Shown here: one piece after another, positions 1,815-24,706 of the stretch
Numbering within the stretch: position 1 is the first letter of the stretch
Layout: each line of letters starts with the position of its first letter
Assembly (NCBI GenBank): GCA_947476735.1
Contig: CANJRZ010000002.1
Span: forward strand, 1-64,000
From: Sphingomonadaceae bacterium
Lineage (GTDB): Bacteria; Pseudomonadota; Alphaproteobacteria; Sphingomonadales; Sphingomonadaceae
Direction: 5' to 3'
DNA length: 64,000 nt
Made by a program: the position numbers and the translations under genes
Notes under the pieces: generated by a model
Databases searched by the model: none
Seen by the model: only the letters and a program-made list of their open reading frames with translations
What the model was told of the DNA's origin: nothing

Positions 1815-1925
1815 GCTTTCAGACGGCGGTCCCTGACGCAGAGGAGAGGGTGCCGATCGATCTTCGGTTCAATGTGACCGGAGACGACAATGATCGAATG
1901 CAATCAGACCGACAGGACGATCTCG

Positions 1926-2816
1926 ATGGCGAGACTACCGCTGGACGCTGAAATCCGGGCAAAGAACATCGTCGAAAAGCTCGGCGGGATTTGGCGCGGC
2001 TCCCGTGGTGAATGTCTCTGTCCCGCTCATGATGACAGCTCGCCGAGCTTGTCGGTCCGCCTGGGCAACACCGCCATTCTCTTTCACTGCTTCGCCGGTT
2101 GTACTCCCGTCGAGGTGATGAAGGCGCTCGAGCGCAATAAGCTTCACGACCGCACCGCGATGGAAATGCCCGAGGTAAAGTCCAAGCGCGACATGGGCGC
2201 CCTAGCCGTGCGGCTGTGGAAGGCCAGCGTGCCTATCGCCGGTACGCTCGCCGAGAAATATCTCCTCGCGCGCGGCCTGTCCCCCCCGTACTCCAAGGCG
2301 CTGCGCTTCAACCCTGCGACCATTCTCGGTTCCGGTCCGACTAAACGGATAATGCCCGCTATGATCGCCGCAGCCGAAAACGACATAGGCGTGACGGCCG
2401 TCCAGCGGACCTTTCTCGATCCCGAAGACGTGCTGCGCAAGCCCATCCCCAAACCCAAGGTGTCGCTTGGACTGATCGGCTCCGCGGCGATCCGGCTTGC
2501 CCCCGCCACCGACGAACTAGGTCTCGCCGAAGGGATTGAGGACGCTCTCTCGGCGATGGAATGGTTCGGTACGCCGACATGGGCGTTGGGCGGTGTCGAG
2601 CGCCTGGCATTCGTCGCGATCCCGGAGAGGGTCCGGCGTGTGATCGTCTATGCCGATCGCGGCCGAGCTGCCGAACGCCTGCTGGAAAAAGGGCGGGACC
2701 ACCTCACCGCCAATGGTCGCGAGCTCATCCCCCGTCTGCCACAGCATCACGATGACTGGAACGACGCCTGGAGAGCCCGCCTTCAGCGCACCGACGCCGC
2801 CGCCGGTCGGCCATGA
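1926..2816 (+). CDS. CHC2-type zinc finger / Toprim domain protein (plasmid primase-like)
   Basis: ORF 1890..2816; probable start ATG 1926 (MARLPLDAEIRAKNIVEKLGGIWRGSRGECLCPAHDDSSPSLSVR...FHCFAGCTPVEVMKAL) with CPAHDD and FHCFAGC motifs; Toprim-like C-terminal half (LAEGIEDALSAM, VIVYADRG). Confidence 0.78.
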   Translation: MARLPLDAEIRAKNIVEKLGGIWRGSRGECLCPAHDDSSPSLSVRLGNTAILFHCFAGCTPVEVMKALERNKLHDRTAMEMPEVKSKRDMGALAVRLWKASVPIAGTLAEKYLLARGLSPPYSKALRFNPATILGSGPTKRIMPAMIAAAENDIGVTAVQRTFLDPEDVLRKPIPKPKVSLGLIGSAAIRLAPATDELGLAEGIEDALSAMEWFGTPTWALGGVERLAFVAIPERVRRVIVYADRGRAAERLLEKGRDHLTANGRELIPRLPQHHDDWNDAWRARLQRTDAAAGRP

Positions 2817-2820
2817 CGTA

Positions 2821-2865
2821 GAGGAGAGGGAGCCTTCGGCCTGTTGATCCGGTGATGAGCACCGG
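2821..2865 (+). promoter_or_regulatory. Repeated leader element, copy 1
   Basis: GAGGAGAGGGAGCCTTCGGC then hairpin CCGGTG-atgag-CACCGG. Confidence 0.6.
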
Positions 2866-2886
2866 GCGACAGAACGGAGCACCTCG

Positions 2887-5800
2887 ATGCGCACCTCAGC
2901 CTCAGCCCTTGAACTCGATTTTACCGAACCTTCGATCACCGCCGCCAGGGCGGTAGCGGACACCATTGCCAGGAATGGCTCACTCACACGCGAGACGCTG
3001 CTGTGGGTCATGGAAACGGCCTATGGCTGCTCGTCCGCCGAGGGACGCTGGTCGCTCCGCGACGCTTACGACATGCTCGAACTCGCTCAAGTATTGTACC
3101 TTGAGGGAGCCGACCTGCCTACGGCCCCCCTCACCTGCTTAGCGGCACTGACGGATCTGGTTGCCGGTCTCCCGACGCACACGGTGCGCAGCGAGGAGCA
3201 GATCGCACTCCAGCAATTCTCCACACCCGTGCCGATCGCCTACCTCGCGACGCTCGCCGCCCGCATCGCCTCTACCGATGTGGTGTTGGAGCCCTCTGCC
3301 GGCACCGGCCTTCTTGCTGTCTTTGCGCGGCGCATCGGCGCTCGCCTCATCCTCAACGAGCTCGATCCAGCACGAGCCGGGATGCTCGAAGCAGCCTTCC
3401 CTGGGTTCCCGGTGAGCCGGCACGACGGTGAGCTGATCCACGATCTGCTGCCGCGATCGATCAGCCCAACCGCCGTTCTCGTCAACCCGCCCTTCTCGCG
3501 CAGCATTGGCCGCCATGCCGACCCGCTCGCCGCGTTCCGCCACCTTCGTGCCGCTCTCATGCGGCTCGCGCCGGGAGGCCGCTGCGCCGCCATCCTCCCT
3601 GATCGCGTCGATACATCGAGCCGCGCCTGGTCCAAGGCGATCGAGGGATGTGCTTTGACATTGCACCTCGAGCTGCCCGGAAACGCCTACGCGAAGCATG
3701 GCACTAGCCAGACCGTGAAGATCATGGTGCTCGAAAAGGGCACCGGGGATCATGCCGAGCTGATCCGATCCGGTTCGCTCGCCGAGGCTCTCGCGGCCAT
3801 CACCGCGCCGACCGCGCCTGTCAGGGTGCCGTCGGTGCAGCACCTCGCGCGCCCGAGCGCGCGTGGATCGCTGCTAGGCGGTCTCGCCAACAAACCGCGC
3901 CTAACGGCGCCTTCGCCCAAGGTCGCGCAGTCGCTCGCCGCGGTCGACATCACTTACACCGTCTTCGCCGAGCCCGTGTCGACGGGGGAGGCCGTCGGTG
4001 TCTACCTGCCCTATCGGCCGAGCCGCGTCGCGATCTCCTGCTCGTCCGCGCATCCGACCGCGCTGGTGGAATCGATCGCGATGGGATCGATCACCGCGCC
4101 CCGGCCATCCTACTTCCCTCGGCTCCCGACGCAGGTCGTCGACAGCAAGGTGCTCTCAGACGCTCAGCTCGAAACGCTGATCTACGCTGGCGACGCCTTC
4201 GAGCGCGACATCCCCGGCCTGTTCAAGCCCGTCGAAGCGGGCCTGTCGCTCACGCCCGATGAGGAAGGTCGCCCCTATCGGACCGGCTTCTTCCTCGGCG
4301 ACGGCACCGGCGCCGGCAAGGGCCGCCAGGTTGCCGCCATCATCCTCGATCAATGGCTTCGCGGACGCCGCAAGCATATCTGGATCTCCAAGACCGAGAC
4401 GCTGCTCGAGGATGCGCGTCGTGACTGGACTGCGGTCGGCGGTCTCGCGCTCGACATCCAGCATCTCAACCAGTGGAAACTCGGTATACCCGTCGGCGCA
4501 GCCGAAGGCGTCCTCTTCCTGACCTATGCGACGCTGCGCTCCAATCGCGGGGACAAGGGCACGCGGCTCCAGCAGATACTCGAATGGGTCGGCGACGATT
4601 ATGACGGCATGGTCGTGTTCGACGAGGCGCACGAGATGGCCGGTGTCGCGGGCGGCGAAGGCCGCTTCGGCACCAAGGACGGCTCCGACCAGGGCATCGC
4701 GGGCGTCCGCCTGCAGAACCTTCTGCCCCGCGCCCGCGTCCTCTACGTCTCCGCGACCGGCGCGTCGGACGTCAACAATTTTGCCTATGCCACTCGGCTC
4801 GGCCTGTGGGGACCGGGGACGGCGTTTGCCGATCGCCGCACGTTCGTCGACAGCCTGCGCCGTGGCGGTATCGCGGCAATGGAGCTGATTGCGCGCGATC
4901 TGAAGATGCAGGGCCTTTATGTCGCCCGTGCGCTCAGTTTCGCTGGTGTCGAGTACGACATCCTCGAACACCGCCTCACCCCCGACCAGATCGAGGTCTA
5001 TGACGCTTATGCGGACGCATGGGCGATCATTCATGCCAATTTGCGCGCCGCGCTCGACGCCACCCGCGTCACGGACAGCTTCTCCAACGACACCTATAAT
5101 AGCGGCGCCAAGGCTGCCGCACTGTCGATCTTCGAGTCCACCAAACAGCGCTTCTTCTGTCAGCTTCTGATCGGCATGAAGCTGCCCTCGCTTATCCCGG
5201 CGATGCACGCCGACCTGGCGCGCGGCGAGAGCGTCGTCATCCAGCTCGTTTCCACGTCCGAGGCGATGCTCAACCGGGCACTCGCCGCACTCAGCGTCGA
5301 AGAGCGCGCCAATCTCGACATCGAGCTTTCGCCGCGTGAGTTCGTCATGTCCTATCTGACGGCCGCCTTCCCGGTGCGGCAGATGAAGACCTATGTGGAT
5401 GATACCGGCAAGACCCGCTCCGAGCCGATGTCCGACGAGGATGGCCGCCCGGTGTTCAGTCAGGAAGCACTGGAGATGCGCGACAATCTGCTCGAGCAAC
5501 TCTGTGCCCTGCCCGTCGTCGGCTCCGCCCTTGATCATGTCATCGGCCATTTCGGGACGGACGCCGTGGCCGAGGTGACGGGGCGTAGCCGGCGTGTCAT
5601 CATGGACGCGCACGGCCGCCAGCGCGTCGAAAGCCGCTCATCCCGCACCAACCTTGCCGAAACCGACGCCTTCATGCGCGGCGCCAAGAAGATTCTGATC
5701 TTTTCCGATGCCGGCGGTACCGGCCGCAGCTACCATGCGAGCCTTACCGCCGAGAACCAGTCGCGCCGCAACCACTATCTCCTCGAGCCCGGTTGGCGGG

Positions 5801-7095
5801 CTGACGCCGCCATCCAGGGCCTCGGCCGCACACACCGCACACACCAGGCGACCGCGCCCCTGTTCCGGCCGGTGTCGACCGACTGCCGGGGCGAACGCCG
5901 CTTCATCTCGACGATCGCGCGCCGGCTCGACAGCCTGGGTGCGCTCACCCGCGGCCAGCGCCAGACGGGCGGACAGGGCCTGTTCGATCCGCGCGACAAT
6001 CTGGAAAGCGATTACGCCAAGGAGTCGCTGGAAACCTGGTTCCGCCTGCTCGCCGATGGCAAGCTGCGATCGACCACGCTCGACCAGTTCCAGAAGCTCA
6101 CCGGCCTGGAGCTGGAAGGCGAAGGCGGCGGCCTCAAGGAAGACCTGCCGCCCATCCAGCGCTGGCTCAACCGGATACTCGCGCTTCGCATCGCGCTCCA
6201 GAACGCGATCTTCGACGAATATCTTGGCCTGATCGAGGCCCGGATCGAAGCTGCCCGGGAAGCTGGCACGCTCGATCTCGGCGTGGAGAGCATCAATGCC
6301 GAGCGCATCACCATCCTCGATCGCACCGTCATCCGGCGCGACCAGACCAGCGGCGCCGAGACCGAGATCCTCCGGCTCGAAACCGAGGAGCGCTACAAGC
6401 CGGTCCCACTCGATCGCGCGTTGCAGATGCTCGGCGACGACTCGCGCCCGATCGTCAATCGCAAGTCGGGCAAGGCCGCGATCCGGTGCAACACCTATTC
6501 GCTGACCGACGACGATGGCGAGATCGTGCGCCGCTACGAGCTGGTCCGCCCGACCCGCACCGAGCGGATGCGCCAGGATCTTCTCCTCGAAACCATGTGG
6601 GAGGAGACGACCGAGGAGGAATTCTCGGCATTGTGGCAAGCCGAGGTCGAGGAGATGCAGGGCAAGATTCGCACCAGCACGCTCTACCTCGTCACCGGGC
6701 TTCTCCTTCCCGTTTGGGACCGGCTGCCCGACGATCACGTCCAGGTTTGGCGCCTGAACACCGAGGACGGGCAGTCCTTCCTCGGTCGCATCGTCCCCGC
6801 GCCGCTTGTCTCGAAACTTGCGGACGCCTTCGGGATCGCCGCGACGATCACGGTGTCGGGTGAAGAGACGGCCAAGCACGTCATGACGACGGGCGAGATC
6901 TCGAGCGTCGGCGCGTACCGGCTGAAGCGCAGCCTGGTCGCCGGTCAGCAGCGCCTCGAATTGCTCGATTGGCCGCACACGCGCCTTGCCGAGCTGAAGG
7001 CGGCCGGGTGCTTTACCGAGATCATCCAGCACAAGACCCGCCTGTTCGTTCCCGCCGCGACCGCCGTCGCAGTGATCGACCGCATCACAGCCTGA
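2887..7095 (+). CDS. Strawberry-notch-like NTPase/helicase with N-terminal N6-adenine-type methylase domain
   Basis: 1402 aa; VVLEPSAGTGLLAVFA and LVNPPFSRS (NPPF) methylase motifs; GDGTGAGKGRQ Walker A, VVFDEAHEMAG (DEAH), GGTGRSYHA, QGLGRTHRT helicase motifs. Confidence 0.85.
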   Translation: MRTSASALELDFTEPSITAARAVADTIARNGSLTRETLLWVMETAYGCSSAEGRWSLRDAYDMLELAQVLYLEGADLPTAPLTCLAALTDLVAGLPTHTVRSEEQIALQQFSTPVPIAYLATLAARIASTDVVLEPSAGTGLLAVFARRIGARLILNELDPARAGMLEAAFPGFPVSRHDGELIHDLLPRSISPTAVLVNPPFSRSIGRHADPLAAFRHLRAALMRLAPGGRCAAILPDRVDTSSRAWSKAIEGCALTLHLELPGNAYAKHGTSQTVKIMVLEKGTGDHAELIRSGSLAEALAAITAPTAPVRVPSVQHLARPSARGSLLGGLANKPRLTAPSPKVAQSLAAVDITYTVFAEPVSTGEAVGVYLPYRPSRVAISCSSAHPTALVESIAMGSITAPRPSYFPRLPTQVVDSKVLSDAQLETLIYAGDAFERDIPGLFKPVEAGLSLTPDEEGRPYRTGFFLGDGTGAGKGRQVAAIILDQWLRGRRKHIWISKTETLLEDARRDWTAVGGLALDIQHLNQWKLGIPVGAAEGVLFLTYATLRSNRGDKGTRLQQILEWVGDDYDGMVVFDEAHEMAGVAGGEGRFGTKDGSDQGIAGVRLQNLLPRARVLYVSATGASDVNNFAYATRLGLWGPGTAFADRRTFVDSLRRGGIAAMELIARDLKMQGLYVARALSFAGVEYDILEHRLTPDQIEVYDAYADAWAIIHANLRAALDATRVTDSFSNDTYNSGAKAAALSIFESTKQRFFCQLLIGMKLPSLIPAMHADLARGESVVIQLVSTSEAMLNRALAALSVEERANLDIELSPREFVMSYLTAAFPVRQMKTYVDDTGKTRSEPMSDEDGRPVFSQEALEMRDNLLEQLCALPVVGSALDHVIGHFGTDAVAEVTGRSRRVIMDAHGRQRVESRSSRTNLAETDAFMRGAKKILIFSDAGGTGRSYHASLTAENQSRRNHYLLEPGWRADAAIQGLGRTHRTHQATAPLFRPVSTDCRGERRFISTIARRLDSLGALTRGQRQTGGQGLFDPRDNLESDYAKESLETWFRLLADGKLRSTTLDQFQKLTGLELEGEGGGLKEDLPPIQRWLNRILALRIALQNAIFDEYLGLIEARIEAAREAGTLDLGVESINAERITILDRTVIRRDQTSGAETEILRLETEERYKPVPLDRALQMLGDDSRPIVNRKSGKAAIRCNTYSLTDDDGEIVRRYELVRPTRTERMRQDLLLETMWEETTEEEFSALWQAEVEEMQGKIRTSTLYLVTGLLLPVWDRLPDDHVQVWRLNTEDGQSFLGRIVPAPLVSKLADAFGIAATITVSGEETAKHVMTTGEISSVGAYRLKRSLVAGQQRLELLDWPHTRLAELKAAGCFTEIIQHKTRLFVPAATAVAVIDRITA

Positions 7096-7130
7096 CCGAT
7101 CAAGGGCGCTCTCTCTCCGCCCGCCAAAGG

Positions 7131-7177
7131 GAGGGGAGGGAGCCTTCGGCTTTGTGGGTCTGATGAGCAGGCTCGCG
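7131..7177 (+). promoter_or_regulatory. Repeated leader element, copy 2
   Basis: GAGGGGAGGGAGCCTTCGGCTTTGTGGGTCTGATGAGCAGGCTC; hairpin with loop ATGAG. Confidence 0.6.
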
Positions 7178-7219
7178 TGACCGTCTGACGGCTACGCATA
7201 TTCCAGATGGAGACGACCG

Positions 7220-9301
7220 ATGATCCAGTCCGTGAAGGTCAAGAACCTCTCGCTGTCGAAAGACAATGTCCGCAAAACCAACCGTGAAGCCGGCATCGAT
7301 ACCCTTGCCGCCAACATCGCCGCCCAGGGCCTGTTGCAGAACCTGATCGTCACGCCGCTCAAGAAGGCGGGCCATTTCACCGTGAAGGCGGGCGGACGTC
7401 GCCTGCGCGCTCTCCAGCTTCTGATCGAGCAGGGCACCCTCCCCGTGGATCATACCGTGCCCGTCCTGGTCCTCACCGACGATGACAATGCGATCGAGGC
7501 GAGCCTCGCCGAAAACTTCCAGCGCGTACCGATGAACCCGGCCGATGAATGCACCGCGTTCAATTTCCTGATCCAGAAGGGGATGACCGCCGAGGACGTC
7601 GCCAAGCGTCAGGGCGTGACCACCCGCTTCGTCGAACAGCGCGTGCGCCTCGCCGAGCTGGCGCCTTGCGTCTTCGAGGCGCTTGCCGCCGGCGAAATCA
7701 CCCTCGGCGTAGCGCAGGCATACGCCGTCACCAGCGACATCGACCGGCAGGCCCGCGTGTTCGCGCAGATGAGCACGTCCTACTATGGGGACACGCCCGA
7801 CAACATCCGTCGCGCCATCCTCAACGGCACGGTCAAAGCGAACGATGCCAAGGCCCGGTTCGTCGGTCGCGACGCCTATCTCGCCGCAGGCGGTCGCATC
7901 GAAGGTGACCTGTTCGCCACGGAAGGCGACGAAAACTGGATCGACGTCGACCTGATCGAGACGCTCGCCGCCAAGAAGCTGGAAGCTGCCGCGGTCGAAC
8001 TTGCGCAAGCCGAGGGTCTCGCGTTCGTGACGCCGATCGCGGCGACCCACGTCCCCTATGACCTCGAGCGCCAGCTTCATGAGTTTCATGCCCCTGCCCG
8101 CGCCCTCACCGAGGACGAGCAGACGCGCGTGGAAACGCTGGGGTACGAGAACGACCAGCTTGTCGAGCAGCTTGAATCCGTGCTGGCCGATGGCACCCCC
8201 GAAGCCCAGGCGGCGAACGATCGCATCGACGCGATCGAGCGCGAGTTGGAAACGATCGACGACGCCCGTCACGAGATCGATCCGGCGCTGAAGGCGCAGA
8301 TCGGGACGTTCATCTATATCGGTGGTGATGGCGAACCCCGCGTTCACACCCGCCTGTTCAGCGAGAAGCCGGTCGTGGATCCGAACGCTCCTCCCAAGAC
8401 GACGGGCGGAGAAACCGGCGAAGGCGCCGCCGGCGACGCCGAGCTGGGTTCGAAGCTCAGCGCTACGCTGATCGATGAATTGGCAACCCAGCGCCGCCAG
8501 ATCCTCGTCGCCCACATCGCCAGCGATCCGGCGATGGCGCTCGACCTGACCATCTTCCTGATGGCGCAGAACGTGGTGTTCGAGCAGCACCATGTTCCCA
8601 ACCACTCGACGCTGAAGTCGAGCGCCGCGGGCTTCCCGATCTTCGGGTTCCGGGACGAAGGCTCCATGGCGTCGCAGACCATCGACGATCAGCGCCAGCG
8701 GCTCGACACGAGCTGGGCGGGTCACACGACGATGACCGAGCGCTTTGACGCCTTCCGGGCGCTCGACGACGAGGCCCGGGGCGCCTGGGTCGCCTTCTCG
8801 ATCGCGCGCACGCTGGAGCCGACCCTCAACGTCGCCAAGGGCTACCGCCAAAACGCCTTCCACGACCATCTCGGTCGTACGCTCGACATCCAGGTTGCAC
8901 ATTGGTGGCGGCCCACGGCTGAAAACTTCTTCGGCCGGGTGAAGAAGGGCATCATGCTCGACGCGCTCGAGGAGATTGGCGGGCCGATCCTGCGCGGCCG
9001 CTACAAGGACGCCAAGAAGGGCGACCTTGCCGCGACATGCGCGTCGCTGTGCAACGGCCAGGGCATCGTCGAGGCTGAGATCCGCGAGAAGGCGACCGCC
9101 TGGTTGCCCGACGCGATGCGGTTCGACGCTGTCGAGAACCCGGCCAAGACGGCGCTGCGCTCCAGCTTCGTCGATGGCGATGACGGGAACGATCCCGCCG
9201 AGGACGAGGATACCGACATCGGCGACGTTGATGCCGATCTCGAGCCCGACGATCGCGCCGGCGATCAGGACGACGACCAGGATCTGAGCGAGGCGGCCTA
9301 G
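7220..9301 (+). CDS. ParB/RepB/Spo0J-family nuclease/partition-like protein (large, 693 aa)
   Basis: N-terminus MIQSVKVKNLSLSKDNVRKTNREAGIDTLAANIAAQGLLQNLIVTPLKKAGHFTVKAGGRRLRAL...IEASLAENFQRVPMNPADE: ParB N-terminal domain. Confidence 0.85.
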   Translation: MIQSVKVKNLSLSKDNVRKTNREAGIDTLAANIAAQGLLQNLIVTPLKKAGHFTVKAGGRRLRALQLLIEQGTLPVDHTVPVLVLTDDDNAIEASLAENFQRVPMNPADECTAFNFLIQKGMTAEDVAKRQGVTTRFVEQRVRLAELAPCVFEALAAGEITLGVAQAYAVTSDIDRQARVFAQMSTSYYGDTPDNIRRAILNGTVKANDAKARFVGRDAYLAAGGRIEGDLFATEGDENWIDVDLIETLAAKKLEAAAVELAQAEGLAFVTPIAATHVPYDLERQLHEFHAPARALTEDEQTRVETLGYENDQLVEQLESVLADGTPEAQAANDRIDAIERELETIDDARHEIDPALKAQIGTFIYIGGDGEPRVHTRLFSEKPVVDPNAPPKTTGGETGEGAAGDAELGSKLSATLIDELATQRRQILVAHIASDPAMALDLTIFLMAQNVVFEQHHVPNHSTLKSSAAGFPIFGFRDEGSMASQTIDDQRQRLDTSWAGHTTMTERFDAFRALDDEARGAWVAFSIARTLEPTLNVAKGYRQNAFHDHLGRTLDIQVAHWWRPTAENFFGRVKKGIMLDALEEIGGPILRGRYKDAKKGDLAATCASLCNGQGIVEAEIREKATAWLPDAMRFDAVENPAKTALRSSFVDGDDGNDPAEDEDTDIGDVDADLEPDDRAGDQDDDQDLSEAA

Positions 9302-9328
9302 CCCTCTCTACCGCAGTTCGAGGCGACT

Positions 9329-9364
9329 GGGGCGGCACTCTTCGCGGAGTGTCGCCCCTCTTTT
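9329..9364 (+). terminator. Rho-independent terminator-like hairpin
   Basis: GGGGCGGCACTC-ttcgcg-GAGTGTCGCCCC (12-bp stem, one G.T) followed by TCTTTT. Confidence 0.8.
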
Positions 9365-9440
9365 GTGACCCCGCGCCGCCCTCTCCCAGAGGAGAGGATG
9401 CTGACGCGGTTCGCCTCACTCGACATCAGGAGAACATGCC

Positions 9441-10364
9441 GTGGCCAAGACCACCGACAAACTGTCGCCTGCAGACATCATCACCAACACCATCATCGAC
9501 AAGCTCGAGTCCGGCGTGCGCCCATGGGTCAAGCCATGGCGCCCGGGCCTCGGCGGTCGTCCGCTGCGCGCGACCGGCGACCCGTACAAGGGCATCAACT
9601 GCTTCTGGCTGTGGCTCTGCGCCGAGGGCGCCGGCTACAACTCGCGCACCTGGATGACGTACAAGCAGGCGCAGGCACTTGGCGGCCAGGTCCGCGAGGG
9701 CGAACGCTCGCAGATCGCCATCTTTTACAAATCCTACAGCAAGACCGTGGAATCGCCCGTCACCGGTGACAGCTCGGACGAGATGCGCCGTGTGTTGCGC
9801 TCCTACGCAGTGTTCAATTGCGACCAAATCGACGGGCTCTCGGGCGACTTCTATCCGAGTCCCGTCAGCGCGGTGCCGCCCGCCGACGAACTGCCCGATC
9901 GCGCGCAGCGCTTCATCGATGCTTTGCCGGCCACGGTCCACATACGCGGCGATCGCGCCTTCTACGATCGTATCGCGGACAGCATCACGATGCCGCCGGT
10001 CGAGCTGTTTTCTACCCGCGCCTTTTTCGCTTCCACGCTGGCGCACGAGGCAGGTCATTGGAGCGGCCATCCCGACCGGCTCGACCGGGAGTTCGGCAAG
10101 CGGTTCGGCGATGACGCCTACGCTTTCGAGGAACTCTGTGCGGAGATGACTTCCGCGCTGATCGGTGCCGATCTCGGCCTGCCCACCTCGCACATCGACG
10201 ATCATGCAGCTTACATCGGCTCGTGGTTGAAGGTGCTGCGCAAGGATTCTCGCGCCATCATGACCGCAGCCGCCAAAGCGGAAGCTGCGGCCGGATACCT
10301 GCTGCGCGCGACAGGCCTCGCCGCCTCGGAGGAACCCGAGGAACAGATCCGTGAAGCGGCATGA
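9441..10364 (+). CDS. ardC: ArdC-family antirestriction protein with zincin-like peptidase domain
   Basis: MAKTTDKLSPADIITNTIIDKLESGVRPWVKPWRPG...YKGINCFWLW...THEAGH-type motif LAHEAGHWSGH; EELCAEM. Confidence 0.88.
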   Translation: MAKTTDKLSPADIITNTIIDKLESGVRPWVKPWRPGLGGRPLRATGDPYKGINCFWLWLCAEGAGYNSRTWMTYKQAQALGGQVREGERSQIAIFYKSYSKTVESPVTGDSSDEMRRVLRSYAVFNCDQIDGLSGDFYPSPVSAVPPADELPDRAQRFIDALPATVHIRGDRAFYDRIADSITMPPVELFSTRAFFASTLAHEAGHWSGHPDRLDREFGKRFGDDAYAFEELCAEMTSALIGADLGLPTSHIDDHAAYIGSWLKVLRKDSRAIMTAAAKAEAAAGYLLRATGLAASEEPEEQIREAA

Positions 10365-10514
10365 TCGGTCAGGCCGCCCGCCCCGACCTCGGCGCTTACC
10401 GGCGCTTCGTCGTGGCGCATTCCCATCCTGGCCCAGCCATGGGCGCTGCCTGCCGGTGCGTTCCGCGATAGCGCCGGGCCGATTTGAACGACTTTCCAAT
10501 GTCAGGAGATAACA

Positions 10515-10973
10515 ATGGTCGACCGTGTAGCAGCAACGATTACGATAGGAGGCACCCTCCCCTCCTCCCTTCTCGAAGCCTTCGTCGGACTCGTCGAGGA
10601 TGAGGCGCTAGCGCCCGAATGGGACGGCGACCCCTTCATCATCGCGGACCTCCCCGCAGATGGACCGCTCATGCTGATGGCGAGCGAGGTCGCGTGGGGC
10701 GAATTCAGGGAACTCGAAAGCTTCTGTGTCGAGCATCACCTGCCCTTCGCGCGCTGGCACCAGTCCAATTGCGGTTCCTGGGGTGCCGAACGGGCTGTTT
10801 TCATGGGCGAGGGCGGGGTGCGGCTCTACGCGGCGACCGACGATGATACCGTGGTGATCGACCGTGAAACCGTCGTTAGGCTGGGCTCGGCCGACGCGAT
10901 CGTCGAATATCTCGACATCGCTGATGCCGTCCCGCCCCGCTTCCAGGTCGTACCCGGTCGCGCAGCGTCCTAG
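10515..10973 (+). CDS. Hypothetical protein
   Basis: 152-aa ORF in the same-strand gene run with RBS (CAGGAGATAACAATG). Confidence 0.6.
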   Translation: MVDRVAATITIGGTLPSSLLEAFVGLVEDEALAPEWDGDPFIIADLPADGPLMLMASEVAWGEFRELESFCVEHHLPFARWHQSNCGSWGAERAVFMGEGGVRLYAATDDDTVVIDRETVVRLGSADAIVEYLDIADAVPPRFQVVPGRAAS

Positions 10974-11005
10974 CCGGCTGCTGGTCGGCCATCCGATGCC
11001 CGAGG

Positions 11006-11049
11006 GAGGAGAGGGAGCCTTCGGCCTTTGTGAGCGCGCCCCGGCGCTC
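11006..11049 (+). promoter_or_regulatory. Repeated leader element, copy 3
   Basis: GAGGAGAGGGAGCCTTCGGCCTTTGT then hairpin GAGCGC-gccccg-GCGCTC. Confidence 0.6.
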
Positions 11050-11064
11050 CGGAGGGTTTTTCCC

Positions 11065-11700
11065 ATGTTCTACGACACGCTCTACCGCCACAATCAGGCG
11101 CTCTCGCCCGCAGGTCTCGAGTCCGTTCCCAACGCGCTGCATGCGCTCAACGCCGCAGTCGACGACTGCCGGCGCGCAGGCAAGTCGATCGGCGACGATG
11201 CTTCGATCCTTTTGCTGATCCGGAACCTAGCCGACGTCGCCGAGCGCACGGCACCCAGCACGAGCGAACTGCGTCGCCGCTGCCAAATGGATCGCTCGGA
11301 CGTCGAGGCGTCGCCGGCGCTGCTCGACATCGCCGGCAACACGGTCGGCGGCAATTATCCCGCCAAGCGCACCTTCCACTATCAGGCGCGCCGTGCGCTC
11401 GCCCGTCTCGCTGAGGCGATCGGGCTCGATCCGGACGACGCGCGGATCAACACCGACATGGGTCGCGACGATGACGACGGCACCACCGAGTTGCGGCACG
11501 TGGACCTTCATATCCGCGTCGTGCCGCGCAGCTTCCTCCCCGACAGCGAGATCACTTTCAATTGCTGCCGGAACGGCGAACCCGCTGGACAGGTCCACCG
11601 GGCGCCGATCGCCGAGCTGCTGGACGCCCTGGCGTTCCAGCGTCGGCTCACCGCCACGATCGGCGACGTAGGCGCTCCCCGCCTCGCCGCCGCTGCCTGA
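11065..11700 (+). CDS. Hypothetical protein
   Basis: Within ORF 10864..11700; start chosen at ATG 11065 (MFYDTLYRHNQALSPAGLESVPNALHAL) after conserved leader element; C-terminal tail duplicated downstream. Confidence 0.6.
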   Translation: MFYDTLYRHNQALSPAGLESVPNALHALNAAVDDCRRAGKSIGDDASILLLIRNLADVAERTAPSTSELRRRCQMDRSDVEASPALLDIAGNTVGGNYPAKRTFHYQARRALARLAEAIGLDPDDARINTDMGRDDDDGTTELRHVDLHIRVVPRSFLPDSEITFNCCRNGEPAGQVHRAPIAELLDALAFQRRLTATIGDVGAPRLAAAA

Positions 11701-11728
11701 TCCCCCCGCATACGCTGGAGACGCCATC

Positions 11729-14243: not shown

Positions 14244-14286
14244 GAGGGGAGGCAGCCTTCGGCGCCGGTGAGCCTGGAAGCTCGCC
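14244..14286 (+). promoter_or_regulatory. Repeated leader element, copy 4
   Basis: GAGGGGAGGCAGCCTTCGGCGCC then hairpin GGTGAGC-ctggaa-GCTCGCC. Confidence 0.6.
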
Positions 14287-14668: not shown

Positions 14669-15154
14669 ATGAAAACCTTCACTGTTCACTGCGAATACCC
14701 TGCCCATTACCGTGCGGAAATCACGGTCGAGGCGGGGGATCTCGTCGGCGCCTGTCGTGCCGCGATCGATGCGTCACATAAGGCCGACGGGTGGAAGAGC
14801 CTCGATACGGAGCATCCTACCTACGTCACCGCAATCGCCGAAGGGACGGACATCGACCCTTGGCGCTGTCCCCCCGAGGGTGCTGATACCTCCGTTCTCC
14901 CCGTCCCTCGCCTGTTCACGGATGTGGCGGCCCTCGCGGGCTATGCGGCGACCCGGAGTGACGATCTGGTCGACCAGCTCCGCATCATGGTCGATGCCAT
15001 CGGCGCCGATGGCGGCCCACGGATCACCCCAGCGGCGATGGTACGCTTGCGCGCGACCGGGAAAGCCATTCTCGACGACATCGCAGCGTTCGGGTTGAGC
15101 CCCACTCCAAGCGCAACGCCAAGCGTGTTCTCGGATGTGCCCGACGTTACCTGA
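14669..15154 (+). CDS. Hypothetical protein
   Basis: Within ORF 14426..15154; start ATG 14669 (MKTFTVHCEYPAHYRAEITVEAGDLVGACRAAIDAS) with CAGGAG RBS. Confidence 0.55.
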   Translation: MKTFTVHCEYPAHYRAEITVEAGDLVGACRAAIDASHKADGWKSLDTEHPTYVTAIAEGTDIDPWRCPPEGADTSVLPVPRLFTDVAALAGYAATRSDDLVDQLRIMVDAIGADGGPRITPAAMVRLRATGKAILDDIAAFGLSPTPSATPSVFSDVPDVT

Positions 15155-15213
15155 CGTCCGACAACCTTTCCGCCAGAGGATGCGGCATATGGGCGGCCGC
15201 GAGACACCCGCAA

Positions 15214-15274
15214 CCGCAAAAATCCGGGCCGAGTTGCCGCTTCGCGGCTGCCCGCTCCACCCCGGTTTTTGCGG
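15214..15274 (+). repeat. Second structured repeat, copy A (upstream of DUF2493 gene)
   Basis: Core CCGAGTTGCCGCTTCGCGGCTGCCCGC (15229-15255) enclosed by CCGCAAAAAtCCGGG / CCCGGTTTTTGCGG. Confidence 0.6.
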
Positions 15275-15379
15275 TTTCCCTCGGCTGCGCCTCGGTGCGG
15301 GCGCCTCTTATTCGGCCGCCCAGGAGATGCGCATCCGGCGGATAGGCCGCCGGCCCAGATCAGATGAAGGGCTTAACCC

Positions 15380-16330
15380 ATGACCACTTCCCTTGCCGCA
15401 GCACTTTCCGCACTGGAGCTTGGACACCTCGAACCACGCGCCGAAGATATCTCTGGGATGGCCCCTCCCCCGTCCGAAGCCCTTGAGCAGACCACCACCG
15501 CTATCTGGAGCGATTTGTTCGCAACCCTCCAGAATACGTCGCTCGAGCGTGACATCGAGGAGATGGGCTGGGGTCTCGTCAACCTCTTCCACCGTGCCGC
15601 GGCCAAGAAGCACGCGACGATCGACCGTCTCACCGATGAGATCAGGCTGCTGATTGCCGAGCAGGATGGTTCGGAGATCAACACCTCCAACCTCGAGGAG
15701 AAAATCGACCTCGCCAAGAAGATCGAGGAAGCCGCCTCTTGCTACGAGCTGATGCGCGACACCGCAGCCGCGCACTATATCCGCGAAACGGGCCGCTCCT
15801 GGATACCATCGACCGGCAACCGCATCTCGCTGGGAGTCACGTCCGCAATCGTCGATGGGCGAGCATTCCTCCGCGCTCGTCGCGAGCGGATCCGCGACGC
15901 GAATACAGCACAGGGTACGCCGGTCGTGTTCGCAGGCGGAAGGCTGACCTTCCGGACCGACGAGGACATGAAGGCGTTCGGCGACAATCTGCTGCGCACC
16001 CTGAATGCGGTCCGGGAGCGTGTCGGGGACATGTATCTCGTCCATGGCGGCGACATGAAGGGGATCGAGCGCATCGCCGCCTCCTGGGCCGAGCAGCACG
16101 GCATCCAGCAGGTCCGCTTCGGTCTCGATCGCAAGCTTGGGGACCGCGCTGGCTTCCGTCGCAACGAGCAGATGCTCTCGCTGAAGCCGCGCTACGTCAT
16201 CGCCTTCCAGGGCAACGGCGTGACCGAGCGTCTGGTGATCGATGCGAAGAAGGCGGGCATCCGGGTGGTCGATCGTCGCGGCCTATTGGGTACGCCCCCC
16301 GCTGCCCAGAACGACCGCAAGGTCGCCTGA
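15380..16330 (+). CDS. DUF2493 (YspA/SLOG-like) protein
   Basis: C-terminal VVFAGGRLTFRTDEDMKAF...MYLVHGGDMKGIERIAASWAEQHGIQQVRFGLDRKLGDRAGFRRNEQMLSLKPRYVIAFQGNGVTERLV. Confidence 0.8.
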   Translation: MTTSLAAALSALELGHLEPRAEDISGMAPPPSEALEQTTTAIWSDLFATLQNTSLERDIEEMGWGLVNLFHRAAAKKHATIDRLTDEIRLLIAEQDGSEINTSNLEEKIDLAKKIEEAASCYELMRDTAAAHYIRETGRSWIPSTGNRISLGVTSAIVDGRAFLRARRERIRDANTAQGTPVVFAGGRLTFRTDEDMKAFGDNLLRTLNAVRERVGDMYLVHGGDMKGIERIAASWAEQHGIQQVRFGLDRKLGDRAGFRRNEQMLSLKPRYVIAFQGNGVTERLVIDAKKAGIRVVDRRGLLGTPPAAQNDRKVA

Positions 16331-16341
16331 GCTTACGGCTC

Positions 16342-16363
16342 GGCCGCTGGCATGCCAGCGGCC
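16342..16363. repeat. 22-bp perfect palindrome (possible hairpin after DUF2493 gene)
   Basis: GGCCGCTGGCATGCCAGCGGCC equals its own reverse complement. Confidence 0.8.
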
Positions 16364-16438
16364 CTTCGCCGTTTGCGGCTTCGCCGCCGCCCGCGCCGAT
16401 GCGGCGCATCAACCATCAAACCGCCAAGGAGCGCCGCC

Positions 16439-16669
16439 ATGTCTCGCCCCAATCCGTTCCAGACCGCCGCCCATTGCTGGCGCTTCGCGCTGCGCCGCGC
16501 TTCGGAAGACGGCGATACTTTCCATGTGGTGATGACGGACAATCCCGCCGCTCCGCGTGCGGTCCTGTCCGACCGCGAGCTGTTCGCTCGCGAGGATCTC
16601 GCACCCGAAGACATCGAGGCGTCGTGCGACCCGTTCCTCCCCAGCATCGTCAGCGCTCGCGAGAGGTGA
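16439..16669 (+). CDS. Hypothetical protein (76 aa)
   Basis: ATG 16439 in ORF 16352..16669: MSRPNPFQTAAHCWRFALRRASEDGDTFHVVMTDNP; AAGGAG RBS. Confidence 0.5.
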   Translation: MSRPNPFQTAAHCWRFALRRASEDGDTFHVVMTDNPAAPRAVLSDRELFAREDLAPEDIEASCDPFLPSIVSARER

Positions 16670-16726
16670 GGAGGCTTTTCGTGGACTTGAGCGGTCCGAT
16701 TTCCGGTCCACCCCGGAGCCACCATC

Positions 16727-17185
16727 ATGTTCGAAACGACCATCCTCGGCGCCTGCCCGGCTGAAGAAGACACCGCGCAGCTTGGCCGCGCGCGTGATTT
16801 CGACCGGTTGAACCGCCTCGAAGTCGACTGCTACCAGGCCGCCCTTACCGCCCACTACGGCCCGCCCTCTGCCGGCGCCAGCTTCATTCGACACTGTTCC
16901 AACCACGATTTCGGCCGCTACACCGAGCTCGCGCTACGCTTCAATCCGAAGAACGAGGCAGAAGCTGCCTATGCCGCGTTCGTCGGCGAAGGGCTTGCCC
17001 GCTGGTTTCATGGCGGCTTCACGCCGCCCGTCGAATACCCTGACAGCGCGTCGCCGATGATCCGCCATGCTGATCTCGCGGCCGCGATCCGCTCCGCGAT
17101 CAGCATCATGCGCCCGCCGTTCCCCGAAGGCGAGCGCATGATCACGAACCTCCGCGCCAACTACCCCGATGCGGTCCCGGCCTGA
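16727..17185 (+). CDS. Hypothetical protein
   Basis: 152-aa ORF in the + strand run; stop overlaps next start. Confidence 0.55.
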   Translation: MFETTILGACPAEEDTAQLGRARDFDRLNRLEVDCYQAALTAHYGPPSAGASFIRHCSNHDFGRYTELALRFNPKNEAEAAYAAFVGEGLARWFHGGFTPPVEYPDSASPMIRHADLAAAIRSAISIMRPPFPEGERMITNLRANYPDAVPA

Positions 17186-17694
17186 TGGCCCGCGACTGCG
17201 TCCGGCACCCGCGCCACGTCATTCAGCCTCTCGTGATCGGACGACAGCCCGATCTCTTCGACGGCCCGACCGTGACACACGAGCGACCCGTCAAGCCCAC
17301 GCCCCAGACATGGGGACGCGACTTCCTCCGTTACCTCCGGGCCACCAGCCCGCACGCGGAATCCTCCACGGAGCAACCAAAAATGACCGACAAACTTCAC
17401 GATCACACTATGTCCAACGTCCCGGACAAGCCGGCCTGGACTGACGAGGAACTTCGCACCCTCATCGACTTCCGGCACCGCTATGGGCGCCGCTGGAAGA
17501 GCAAGCTGCTCGACCTCTATTTGTTCGGCAAGGATGACAGCGAGCCGAACGGCGCCGGCCTTCGGCACATCCGGAACCGCCAAGGCCCCAGCCGGGTGGA
17601 CGCTGTGACCAAGGCGATGCTCGACGAGGCCGAAGATCGGCTCGCGGCCCCGGCGCGCCCGCATCATCCGGGCCTGGTCGGCCCGTCCCGATAA
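17185..17694 (+). CDS. Hypothetical protein
   Basis: 169-aa ORF overlapping preceding stop (TGATG). Confidence 0.5.
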   Translation: MARDCVRHPRHVIQPLVIGRQPDLFDGPTVTHERPVKPTPQTWGRDFLRYLRATSPHAESSTEQPKMTDKLHDHTMSNVPDKPAWTDEELRTLIDFRHRYGRRWKSKLLDLYLFGKDDSEPNGAGLRHIRNRQGPSRVDAVTKAMLDEAEDRLAAPARPHHPGLVGPSR

Positions 17695-17703
17695 GGTGCT
17701 CAA

Positions 17704-18828
17704 GTGGAGCCCATCTACCTGGTCGCCTGCGTCTCGCAGAAGCTCGATCGGCGCGCCCGCGCCGCCGAGTTGTATCGATCCTACTGGTTCCGCAAGGTGC
17801 GAACCTATGTCGAAGAGACCGGCTCGCCTTGGTTCATCCTGTCGGCCGCCCATGGACTCGTGAGACCGAAAGATAGGCTCGAGCCCTACAACGTCACCCT
17901 CCGCGACTTCTCGTCCGCTGGACGGCGACTGTGGGGCGAGAAGACAGTTCGCCAGCTTCGGCAAGCAGTCGGCCCTCGCTCTGTCGGCCCGATCGTCTTT
18001 CTCGCAGGGCGGCTCTACCGGGAGCCCCTGCTCGACTTCGCCGGCGATTGGGCCGTCATACCCATGGCAGGTATGGGCATCGGCCAGCAAAAGGCATGGC
18101 TGGCGGCCCAGATCACCGCCGCCCGCAAGCGCGCTGCGCGCGCTGCTCAACTGGACTTTCCCCACGACTGCAGACGGAGGCTCGCATGTCGCGTTTCGCC
18201 ATCCGGCACCGCTATGCGGTGCCCCGCCCCTTCGTGCGCCATCCAGCGCAACTCGAGTTATTCGATTTTGTGGCGGATGCCACCGCCGCCGCCGGTATGC
18301 GGATTCTGCCGTGGCGGGGCCTTCCGGTCTGGCACTGCGAGCTCGATCGCCAAAGCGCGATCATGCGCCCTAGTCGCCCGCTCTATCACCGCTTCGAGAT
18401 CACGGCTCGCCAACTCACCGCAGAGCGGATCCGCGCGTGCCGCGACATGGCGGCGATCGCCCGTCTGGTCGAGCGCCTGTCGGCCGCCCGCTATCCCAGC
18501 GGCTACTTGCACGACCTCGACCGCGTCTGGTCGCGCGCGGAGCTCGGCGCGCTTCTCGTCGAGGCCACCAACCGCCGCACATTACTCGCGATGGGTAGGG
18601 ATCAACCTCGGGCAAAGGGTCCGGCCCTCGATCCACGACGCCTACCGGACGACCGGCTCGACCACCTTATTCAGACGCACCGGGACATCTCCGTCGTCGA
18701 GGCGCTGCGTGTCGAACGAGAACGTCGCGCCCGAGCCGCAGCTTCGATATATCTCCGCCGGACAGGAGCATAAACATGGATCAAGAGTCGCCGGCTCGCC
18801 GCCCCGCTATTCGCGCTGTGTCGTTTGA
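17704..18828 (+). CDS. DUF6884-like protein; ORF unusually reads through the following gene
   Basis: MEPIYLVACVSQKLDRRARAAELYRSYWFRKVRTYVEETGSPWFILSAAHGLV; domain-like part ends near codon 160, then low-information sequence in alternate frame of 18186..18773. Confidence 0.6.
   Translation: MEPIYLVACVSQKLDRRARAAELYRSYWFRKVRTYVEETGSPWFILSAAHGLVRPKDRLEPYNVTLRDFSSAGRRLWGEKTVRQLRQAVGPRSVGPIVFLAGRLYREPLLDFAGDWAVIPMAGMGIGQQKAWLAAQITAARKRAARAAQLDFPHDCRRRLACRVSPSGTAMRCPAPSCAIQRNSSYSILWRMPPPPPVCGFCRGGAFRSGTASSIAKARSCALVARSITASRSRLANSPQSGSARAATWRRSPVWSSACRPPAIPAATCTTSTASGRARSSARFSSRPPTAAHYSRWVGINLGQRVRPSIHDAYRTTGSTTLFRRTGTSPSSRRCVSNENVAPEPQLRYISAGQEHKHGSRVAGSPPRYSRCVV
18186..18773 (+). CDS. Hypothetical protein
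   Basis: Within ORF 17931..18773; start ATG 18186 (MSRFAIRHRYAVPRPFVRHPAQLELFDFVADATAAAGMRILPWRGLPVWHC) with GGAGGCTCGC RBS. Confidence 0.6.
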   Translation: MSRFAIRHRYAVPRPFVRHPAQLELFDFVADATAAAGMRILPWRGLPVWHCELDRQSAIMRPSRPLYHRFEITARQLTAERIRACRDMAAIARLVERLSAARYPSGYLHDLDRVWSRAELGALLVEATNRRTLLAMGRDQPRAKGPALDPRRLPDDRLDHLIQTHRDISVVEALRVERERRARAAASIYLRRTGA

Positions 18829-19114
18829 CGATGTCGGTGCCGCCCTTGCACGACTGGTTCCGATCGCACTGCCGCCCACCCGCGCCGCCGAAACAGGCGC
18901 ATCATCCAAGGTGGCCGACTTTCTCCTCGCCTGGTGGAACGGTGACGACACCGGCCAATTTCCGATCCTCCACCTGTGCAATGTCGATGCTGTGACCGCC
19001 GAGGATATGCTGATCATCATGGCCTATCTTGCCGAGAATTCGACGGTCTACGCCGACCGATGGGGCTATCGCGACACCATGGCCCAGATCTGGGAACGAT
19101 ATCGCGAACTATAG
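18776..19114 (+). CDS. DUF7673-like protein
   Basis: 112 aa; VADFLLAWWNGDDTGQFPILHLCNVDAVTAEDMLIIMAYLAE...ADRWGYRDTMAQIWERYR. Confidence 0.6.
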   Translation: MDQESPARRPAIRAVSFDDVGAALARLVPIALPPTRAAETGASSKVADFLLAWWNGDDTGQFPILHLCNVDAVTAEDMLIIMAYLAENSTVYADRWGYRDTMAQIWERYREL

Positions 19115-19708
19115 CGTCTCGCGCCCTATTCCGCTTGGCGCTTCACCGAGCCTCTGCGAGTCTCGGCCTATCTGGTCACGATCGACTGATGCGGGCGCTG
19201 CCGCGCCGCCGCTTATATCATGGTGCGGAGCCGTGCGATGGGCGAGACCCCGAGCCTGCACCCGCCATGCACCTCTAAGTCGGGCGGAAGCCTCAACGCA
19301 GCGGTGGCCGCGCGCCCTGCCCAGCGAGGCCCCGCGTGGAAGCCTTTATCGGCATCATGACGGCAGCGTTCAGCTCCTGCCGTCCCGGTGGTGGTTCTGG
19401 CACGACGAACCTTCCCATCATCCATCTCGCCCTGCACGAGGCGCGCGCGCCGTGGCAGTGAAGGCAGCACCCGGGTCCAACCCGCGAGATTCGACCTGCA
19501 TGATGGCCGTCCCGCGCCCGGCGCAACGGCGAGGCTGAGGCAATCAGAGCCGCATTATGGTGACGGATCGACGCATGGTGACGACGCCGGACGAGCGACG
19601 AGACAAGCGTGTCCTGCTTCTCGGATCCATGTCCATTGCCCGCCCGTGGGGGTCCATCCCCTCTCTTTCCTGAACGACCTAAGCCGGCCGTCCACCCCCT
19701 CCAACCCG

Positions 19709-19763
19709 CGATCATACGGACCGAGTTGCCGCTTCGCGGCTGCCCGCACCACTCCTTTGATCG
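19709..19763 (+). repeat. Second structured repeat, copy B (upstream of ssb)
   Basis: Identical 27-nt core (19721-19747) enclosed by CGATCA / TGATCG. Confidence 0.6.
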
Positions 19764-19870
19764 GGGTTCCCCTCCGCGTCTTCGCGCTCCGGTGGAGAGG
19801 TCGTCCTGGCCGTCTTTGACGGTGTTCAGTCGAGGGGACGGACCCCCGGCGAACAAAAAGGAACCTCGAA

Positions 19871-20284
19871 ATGCAGAACCTCGTCATCCTCGCCGGCAAC
19901 GTCGGCGCCACGCCTGAGACCCGCACCACCCAGGGCGGCACCAAGATCACCCAGTTCAGCCTTGCGACCTCACGCCCCAAGCGCGACAGCGACGGCAAGA
20001 CCATGAAGGATGGTGAAGGTCGCCGGGTCGAGGACACCGAGTGGCACCGCATCACCTGCTTCAACGGCATCGGCAAGACCGTCGCGCAGTATGTCGAGAC
20101 GGGCCAGAAGGTTATGGTTCGGGGCCGGATCCACTACACCCGCTGGACCGACCAGGAGAATATCGACCGCTACGGGGTCGAGATCATTGCCGACGAAGTG
20201 ACCTTCCTCTCCTACGGCAAATCCCGCCAGCAGAAGGGTGGCAGCCAAGACGACAACCTTGGGGATGATGATATCCCCTTCTGA
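19871..20284 (+). CDS. ssb: Single-stranded DNA-binding protein
   Basis: MQNLVILAGNVGATPETRTTQGGTKITQFSLATSRPKRD...TEWHRITCFNGIGKTVAQYVETGQKVMVRGRIHYTRWTDQ, acidic tail DDDIPF. Confidence 0.95.
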   Translation: MQNLVILAGNVGATPETRTTQGGTKITQFSLATSRPKRDSDGKTMKDGEGRRVEDTEWHRITCFNGIGKTVAQYVETGQKVMVRGRIHYTRWTDQENIDRYGVEIIADEVTFLSYGKSRQQKGGSQDDNLGDDDIPF

Positions 20285-20295
20285 GCGGGGCAGGA

Positions 20296-20321
20296 AGGCC
20301 CGGAGCTTCGGCTCCGGGCCT
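20296..20321 (+). terminator. Terminator-like hairpin after ssb
   Basis: AGGCCCGGAGC-TTCG-GCTCCGGGCCT, perfect 11-bp stem with TTCG loop. Confidence 0.75.
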
Positions 20322-20347
20322 CTCGCCGTTGGCCCCTTCCTTCCAAT

Positions 20348-20854
20348 CTAACAGCAATCGGTTTGCGCCGGATCGTAGATATAGCTGCCTACGAGGTCGA
20401 GGAGGCCTGCCATCGCTTGTGTTGCGGTATTTCGATCTGGCGCCGTCCAGCTCGAGCTTTGGGGGTATCGGAACAGCTGAAGCGCATGGGGTTGATCGAG
20501 AGCCTCTATGAGCCTGTCTATTGAAAGATCTTGGGCGGAATATAATCCCCCGCGGATCGCCTGGGCATAACAGCGTTCGAGGCTGTGGCCCATCATCATC
20601 AGCCATTCTTCATCATGGCCCTGGTGACTCAATGCGGCCTTAAGCGAAAGTTCAAGGGCATGGGCAATGAGCTGAAACAGGGGCCGCTCAATTGCCTGGT
20701 TCTCTGGCGCGTGCTCGCCCACCATTTTCGCTGCGTCGCCATAGGAGGCAGCCATCGAGAGATATTCACAGGCGCGGCGATTGGGATAGGTCCCTGCGGC
20801 AGCCGAAACGGACATCCCCTGAAGATGGCAGATTGGTGGGTGCAGCCAAGCCAA
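20348..20854 (-). CDS. HEPN-like domain protein
   Basis: LIAHALELSLKAALSHQGHDEEWLMMMGHSLERCYAQAIRGGL resembles HEPN-type LE.LKA..GH.L segments; lone reverse-strand gene. Confidence 0.5.
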   Translation of the reverse strand: MAWLHPPICHLQGMSVSAAAGTYPNRRACEYLSMAASYGDAAKMVGEHAPENQAIERPLFQLIAHALELSLKAALSHQGHDEEWLMMMGHSLERCYAQAIRGGLYSAQDLSIDRLIEALDQPHALQLFRYPQSSSWTAPDRNTATQAMAGLLDLVGSYIYDPAQTDCC

Positions 20855-21011
20855 AAAAATCCGAGGCTACCGGCGCGACCCTAGTGGCGAGCGCCGCTGG
20901 CCCCCCGTAATAGGTAGACACCGGCTTCTGGGCGCCTCGCGCATTGCAAATTGATAGCAGATAAGGTATATTGCCATCAACGATGTCAATCAAACCGGAG
21001 TGCGATCAGCT

Positions 21012-24310: not shown

Positions 24311-24337
24311 TGACGCTCGACCGGTCGCTTGTCGCAA

Positions 24338-24355
24338 AGTCTGCTTGAGCAGACT
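24338..24355. repeat. 18-bp near-perfect palindrome, left copy
   Basis: AGTCTGCTTGAGCAGACT; matches 26998..27015 at 17/18. Confidence 0.85.
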
Positions 24356-24389
24356 TGCGTCAGACATCGTCGCAGGTCCGCATCAATTC

Positions 24390-24423
24390 GCCGCACCTGT
24401 ATTGAATTCAATACAGGTGCGGC
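24390..24423. promoter_or_regulatory. 34-bp perfect palindrome, candidate partition site or operator
   Basis: GCCGCACCTGTATTGAATTCAATACAGGTGCGGC; all 17 pairs checked by hand. Confidence 0.75.
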
Positions 24424-24457
24424 ATAGTCTTTCTACCTTGTTGTCTGGGAGGAGAGG

Positions 24458-24706
24458 GTGCCGGTGGGGGGTGCAGGGCAGGGGAGCGAAAGCAGGCGTT
24501 CCGCCTTTTTGCAGCTTCGGGTGACCCCGACGATGCACAGCGCGATCATGCGCCTGGCGCTCGACCACGACAATCTCACAGTCCGCGCGCTCGTCATGAA
24601 CGCACTCAAGCAAACCTATGGTCTCGATGTCCCTGACGAGGAGCTTCGCGACCGGCGCGGCCGTCAGGCACGACCAGCGCATTCCGAGGAGACCGACCAT
24701 GGCTGA
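24458..24706 (+). CDS. Small putative ribbon-helix-helix-type protein upstream of parA
   Basis: FLQLRVTPTMHSAIMRLALDHDNLTVRALVMNALKQTYGLDVPDEELRDRRG; GTG start at 24458 or 24464. Confidence 0.5.
   Translation: MPVGGAGQGSESRRSAFLQLRVTPTMHSAIMRLALDHDNLTVRALVMNALKQTYGLDVPDEELRDRRGRQARPAHSEETDHG

Follow-up and report, generated by a model that had tools for sequence, protein, structure and literature searches.

SuhB, a small RNA (sRNA) of Sphingopyxis granuli TFA, is reported to bind the 5′ untranslated region (5′ UTR) of thnR and to lower its translation with Hfq, this repression operating in Sphingopyxis at high growth rate (review PMC6563040). The partly homologous alphaproteobacterial sRNAs of Sinorhizobium, AbcR1/2 and MmgR (αr15, αr8), carry CU-rich anti-Shine-Dalgarno motifs, and the AbcR sRNAs control many mRNAs; the review that covers them (PMC7143759) describes no plasmid leader array. 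Repeated elements before genes of mobile DNA are known from cluster K mycobacteriophages, where about half of the SAS/ESAS sequences have an inverted repeat and a role in translation is suspected (PMC3203893), and from F-type leading regions, where the hairpin-bearing Frpo/ssi single-strand promoters precede leading-region genes, SSB among them (PMC11541004). Here we describe a purine-rich box, GAGGRGAGGSWGCC, repeated in a 64,000-nucleotide stretch of a Sphingomonadaceae bacterium (bases 1–64,000 of contig CANJRZ010000002.1, assembly GCA_947476735.1; hereafter the window). The box, probably a target site of the host SuhB, appears to open a structured intercistronic 5′ leader; such leaders precede at least seven genes of an SSB/primase/helicase/ParB/ArdC island that belongs to a conjugative plasmid or element.

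As in the thnR case, the candidate regulator belongs to an sRNA family present in the host and the site lies in mRNA 5′ UTRs; the thnR target is a single catabolic regulator, whereas here one site type stands over many plasmid backbone genes, 50–90 nt before their starts and within a conserved leader structure. The box shares with SAS the character of one asymmetric purine-rich repeat, kept in one orientation before many mobile-element genes. SAS (GGGATAGGAGCCC), in contrast, lies immediately upstream of the start, with its inverted repeat on the 5′ side and no known sRNA partner, and an identification of the box as SAS was rejected on both sequence and position.

The initial annotation had listed seven copies of the box upstream of unrelated genes, and all seven coordinates were exact. 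Six of them are perfect copies on the + strand (starting at 1841, 2821, 7131, 11006, 14244 and 24449), while the copy at 9389, described there as weaker, does have two mismatches to GAGGRGAGGSWGCC but is among the best SuhB matches. Together with a perfect − strand copy inside a coding frame (10551–10564), seven perfect copies occur within the first 25 kb. Shuffles of bases 1–27000 gave 0.00 expected perfect matches with Markov order 1 and 3 and 0.045 with order 5 (maximum 1 in 200), against the seven observed, and a whole-assembly scan found none elsewhere in the 4.58 Mb. Allowing three mismatches removed the enrichment (52 found vs. 53 expected) and was uninformative. All seven listed sites, 9389 included, fall in non-coding gaps (~14% of the stretch, against ~86% coding), 49–89 nt before the next start, gene starts being inferred from open reading frames and homologues. 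The genes that follow encode a Toprim/primase-like protein, a methylase-strawberry-notch helicase, a large ParB-like protein, ArdC and two proteins of unassigned family, the last box standing before a small gene that precedes parA/parB.

The annotation overlooked that the box is the opening of a longer element: four copies (2821, 7131, 11006, 14244) continue with TTCGGC followed by a hairpin. A related site before the gene at 27086 was also overlooked. A scan of a genome collection with GAGGRGAGGSWGCCTTCGG returned 72 loci, ~50 of them in Sphingomonadales, where the element is nearly always placed before a helicase, ParB-like or 211-aa gene, and annotated plasmids of Sphingomonas, Sphingobium and Rhizorhabdus have it in the same gaps. 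Most of the matches outside Sphingomonadales lack the downstream structure and look like chance; judged from these loci, the extended element is a Sphingomonadales feature. A covariance model recovered the four window copies at about E = 1e−8 or better and gave strong matches in a minority of 301 genomes of the family; matches weaker than ~E = 1e−6 in these genomes are mostly unverified, and some of them (L126, L127, L128) do precede ParB-like genes. No copies of the element were found in viral contigs, Rfam 15 returned no relevant match above the gathering score for the window and six related loci, and no open-access paper describing these leaders was found.

The proposal that the box marks a shared leader or regulator gains support from its conserved position across plasmids, from RNA covariation and from complementarity to a host sRNA; the common promoter proposed alongside is not supported. 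Conservation in the helicase class begins at the box, with unrelated sequence on its 5′ side in different plasmids, and the box may follow the preceding stop codon by as little as 4 nt, which together make a promoter ending at the box unlikely. No sigma-70-like promoter was predicted next to the boxes from 1841 to 14244 in a simple consensus scan of bases 1200–21000 (host promoters may differ).

Compensatory changes in two hairpins indicate that the element works as RNA. In hairpin 2, pairs are swapped between classes (G-C/C-G/U-G and U-A/C-G at two adjacent pairs), and its covariation score was reached by 0 of 500 shuffles, although A4 had been fitted to the model. Helix 1 (GCC-UUC-GGC) was invariant in the first alignment, and compensated changes, read by eye, occur in separate lineages: CUCCC-UUU-GGGA (loci L108/L122), GGC-UUC-GCC (L114) and GCCC-UUU-GGGC (L128). 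In helicase leaders the helix 1 segment can pair instead with the Shine-Dalgarno, the core pairs (columns 15–17 with 57–59) being kept in 95–100% of 21 sequences. Predicted Shine-Dalgarno accessibility is 0.16 in the helicase class (0.40 in shuffles), 0.05 in the 211-aa class (0.30) and 0.20 in the Toprim class (0.42). Sequestration as a universal role was rejected, as it fits these three classes and fails for ParB and ArdC, and so was a universal Shine-Dalgarno release upon blocking of the box, which gave a clear shift in the helicase class only. The box itself is unpaired with a probability of 0.2–0.65 in the predicted folds, varying with class and context. Pairing of the box to a CU tract on its 5′ side was likewise discarded as a general feature, being found in many ParB and some ArdC leaders but in no helicase leader.

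The host has three suhB genes above the Rfam cut-off (RF00519), all of which share GGCCUUUCAGGCAUCCUCUCCUAA and contain the seed GGCAUCCUCUCCU, the reverse complement of AGGAGAGGAUGCC. The seed is unpaired in the predicted SuhB fold and was present in 33/33 Sphingomonadaceae suhB sequences examined. None of the other alphaproteobacterial suhB copies examined contains it; outside Sphingomonadaceae they lack GGCAUCCUCUCC and nearly all read GUUUCCUCCC, which also separates the present case from the AbcR/MmgR group. Most plasmid copies of the box pair with the seed at 12–13 of 13 positions. In the ArdC box only the last letter departs from the full complement, and the U there still wobbles with G, while a single mismatch (A:A) occurs in the common GGGAGCC form. 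The variation of the box fits such pairing, since its variable R faces a U in SuhB (A:U or G:U both possible) and G stands almost invariably opposite C. Where helix 1 is absent (ArdC and most Toprim leaders), the box often reads as the complete complement, AGGRGAGGAUGCY; as GAUGCY is thus found in leaders with no helix 1, that helix does not by itself account for the box's tail.

Whole-SuhB duplex computations that ignored intramolecular structure were uninformative and were replaced by seed duplexes and hybridization energies (all energies are model values). Among the 12 best seed duplexes on both strands of bases 1–28600, eight were + strand sites 30–105 nt before a start, against a mean of 0.8 and a maximum of 3 of 12 for 100 shuffled seeds, which keep composition only; this best-12 list takes in 9389 and the new site at 27028. 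Hybridization of full SuhB with the leaders, net of unfolding, averaged −12.4 for eight boxed leaders vs. −6.1 for 23 other starts (p = 3e−5). The boxes pair far better with the SuhB seed (−20 to −28) than with the 16S anti-Shine-Dalgarno (−10 to −17), and the best sites of a control seed, that of SuhB in other alphaproteobacteria, did not lie before starts. On three non-sphingomonad plasmids the best sites of neither seed clustered near starts, and we make no claim for them.

Confinement of the box to places before establishment genes, the supporting outcome named in the annotation, is broadly what this contig presents, but related elements also stand before chromosomal ParB-like genes of other Sphingomonadaceae, and SuhB-seed complements lie on some ribosome-binding sites of the host chromosome. 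These complements are near-perfect and, as expected for SuhB, directly cover ribosome-binding sites in front of several enzyme-like genes. Candidate chromosomal targets (L203, L211, L218, L220, L224), with functions judged from N-termini only, include a predicted molybdopterin-type oxidoreductase, a short-chain dehydrogenase and two amidohydrolase-like genes. As separate observations, suhB-like sequences occur in 62 sphingomonad plasmid records, mostly large plasmids (e.g., CP000700.1, 35562–35620), pSWIT01 of Rhizorhabdus wittichii RW1 among them, and strong SuhB-seed sites (GAGAGGGGAGGRTGCC) at L105 14923 and L111 29317 lie ~155–160 nt before another hypothetical gene.

We regard it as reasonably probable, from the predicted pairing, that the box is a target site of host SuhB and that the genes behind it form a plasmid regulon which a host sRNA controls post-transcriptionally; the near-perfect seed match suggests a joint connection of these plasmid genes to a host signal. 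Chromosomally encoded SuhB would act in trans, pairing through its unpaired GGCAUCCUCUCCU with AGGRGAGGNNGCC, probably assisted by Hfq, and the usual outcome would be less translation. As the box is the leader's best Shine-Dalgarno-like landing site and the true Shine-Dalgarno is predicted to be folded away in the helicase, 211-aa and Toprim classes, SuhB would take the spot where the ribosome waits, and the island would thereby come under the growth-rate or carbon signal that SuhB carries. Control is probably repressive, a first choice that follows from the analogy with thnR and from the box being also the best ribosome landing site.

Several points weigh against this explanation. SuhB was picked while looking for a CU-rich host sRNA and was the first and sole family compared, and some affinity of a CU-rich seed for any purine-rich box is expected. 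As such a repressor normally covers the ribosome-binding site, a location 50–90 nt upstream is unusual, and opening the box costs 7–15 kcal/mol in the models. The ParB leader has a net hybridization of −6.9, no better than background, while one unboxed start (25665) scores −15.7; in loci L108/L122 the GCC part of the box tracks helix 1 and not SuhB, and sequestration in the ParB and ArdC classes is at chance level. Blocking the box in the model raised helicase Shine-Dalgarno accessibility from 0.19 to 0.35 (in 20/33), which would argue for activation there and makes it possible for this leader.

The same observations might be explained without the sRNA if the box were a ribosome standby or Shine-Dalgarno-like landing site before a structured ribosome-binding site, the SuhB match being a by-product because SuhB is itself an anti-Shine-Dalgarno-type sRNA. 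Pairing with the 16S anti-Shine-Dalgarno is indeed stronger for the box (−10 to −17) than for real Shine-Dalgarno sites (−7 to −10), three classes sequester the true Shine-Dalgarno more than chance predicts, and AGGAGAGGRTGCC serves as a ribosome-binding site in the host chromosome. We nevertheless think this unlikely, as the best 16S match would be AGGAGGU, whereas the consensus AGGRGAGG..GCC follows SuhB, including the GAUGC of leaders without helix 1, and as the ParB and ArdC classes lack sequestration.

A further and very unlikely alternative would make the box the ribosome-binding site of a short upstream frame that starts at a K-TG after helix 1; translating this frame would open the structure downstream of it (translational coupling). 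An NTG does occupy a constant position 3′ of helix 1 in 80 matched leaders (TTG 41, GTG 35, ATG 3, CTG 1), and helix 1 would shorten the spacing; ATG is rare, however, the frame relative to the main start varies within classes, stops come at varying distances or are absent, hairpin loops have 1-nt indels, and the layout is missing from Toprim and ArdC leaders. A leader-peptide attenuator was likewise rejected, the start-like NTG being conserved but not frame or length. Equally unlikely, finally, is that the box acts at the DNA level, as part of a promoter, a transcription-factor site or an Frpo-like single-strand promoter used on entry into the recipient. Such a role would suit one regulon-like box over several transcripts and island genes all running in one direction, toward what are presumed to be the oriT and relaxase, an order known from leading regions (PMC11541004). 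It disagrees with the lack of predicted −35/−10 hexamers at the 1841–14244 boxes (Frpo carries them in its DNA hairpin and was rejected for this reason), with an intercistronic element in which conservation sets in at the box, not far behind the preceding stop, with compensatory changes that follow RNA pairs, and with positions facing U in SuhB that vary A/G as RNA wobble allows.

Table 1. Boxes, leader structures and predicted SuhB sites in the window, with the distance from each site to the next start
Feature	Position	Strand	Distance (nt)	Remarks
Box GAGGAGAGGGTGCC	1841..1854	+	49	Before Toprim/primase-like gene (1890); predicted SuhB site, 13/13 positions pair including one G:U
CUUCGG (1862–1867) pairing with CCGGAG (1878–1883)	1862..1883	+		Predicted to sequester the Shine-Dalgarno of 1890
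Box GAGGAGAGGGAGCC	2821..2834	+	66	Before methylase/strawberry-notch helicase gene (2887)
Helicase leader, remainder	2832..2879	+		GCCUUCGG segment 2832–2839; hairpin 2848–2854/2860–2866
Helicase Shine-Dalgarno CGGAG	2875–2879	+		Paired with GCCUUCGG segment (2832–2839) in the predicted fold
Box GAGGGGAGGGAGCC	7131..7144	+	89	Before large ParB-like gene (7220)
ParB leader, helix 1 GCC-UUC-GGC (7142–7150) and hairpin 2 (7155–7162 with 7168–7175)	7142..7175	+		Compensatory changes in relatives
Box GAGGAGAGGATGCT	9389..9402	+	52	Before ArdC (9441); seed duplex −25.5 kcal/mol, among best SuhB matches
Box GAGGAGAGGGAGCC	11006..11019	+	59	Before conserved 211-aa gene (11065)
211-aa leader	11017..11056	+		Helix 1 11017–11025; hairpin GAGCGC/GCGCUC, 11032–11037 with 11044–11049
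211-aa Shine-Dalgarno GGAGGG	11051–11056	+		Mostly paired in the predicted fold
Box GAGGGGAGGCAGCC	14244..14257	+	61	Before 103-aa gene (14305); weakest SuhB match among the seven
103-aa leader	14255..14286	+		Helix 1 14255–14263; hairpin GGUGAGC/GCUCGCC, 14267–14273 with 14280–14286
Box GAGGAGAGGGTGCC	24449..24462	+	84	Before small gene starting near 24533 and parA-region genes; 13/13 SuhB positions pair (one G:U)
Extra predicted SuhB site GTTTTAGGTGAGGGCC	27028..27043	+	~58	Before mobilization-accessory-like gene (27086)

The homologue of the gene at 27086 in the related plasmid locus L105 is likewise preceded by a SuhB-seed site. The island lies upstream of a MobP1-like relaxase gene, toward which its main genes point, an arrangement described for leading regions (PMC11541004); by this analogy, and with an oriT presumed, the arrangement suggests that the island is a leading region. 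Other elements were noted in and around it. A second repeated leader (15214–15300 and 19706–19792; 87 nt, 75% identical) precedes a DUF2493/SLOG gene and ssb2, has an invariant core (CCGAGTTGCCGCTTCGCGGCTGCCCGC) on long hairpin arms that differ in sequence yet remain complementary, and has similar sequences in related plasmids; it may act as a structured RNA or as a single-strand promoter. Between parB and ardC, a strong intrinsic-terminator-like hairpin (9329–9358, 13 pairs then TCTTTTG) stands ~30 nt before the ardC box and recurs in several related plasmids. The perfect palindrome CACCTGTATTGAATTCAATACAGGTG (24396–24421), just 5′ of the 24449 box, is likely an operator of the parA-region transcript. 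An inverted repeat (GGCGGCATCCC..GGGATGCCGCC, 26898–26930) between a parB-type gene and the mobilization-accessory-like and relaxase genes is a candidate terminator or part of oriT. Two segments 744 nt apart (11523–11705 and 12267–12449), 77–78% identical, show that the end of the 211-aa gene has been partly duplicated.

The control of plasmid establishment genes outside the F group is little known, and SuhB has few named targets in sphingomonads. The conserved leader is an RNA element absent from Rfam 15, and if its box is indeed a SuhB site, SuhB would gain a large conserved target set and plasmids would be using a host sRNA as the common signal for a multi-gene regulon. A broader proposal, which is speculative and on balance doubtful, is that a plasmid lineage put its whole entry and establishment set under one host core sRNA, with a near-perfect SuhB site repeated within a shared structured leader, which would let the growth rate of the host govern establishment. 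Jointly, the leader mRNAs may in addition titrate SuhB and relax host catabolite repression. Degradative sphingomonad plasmids carry pollutant-degradation genes, and seed swaps would, given real pairing, offer a testable handle on plasmid transfer in these degradative sphingomonads.

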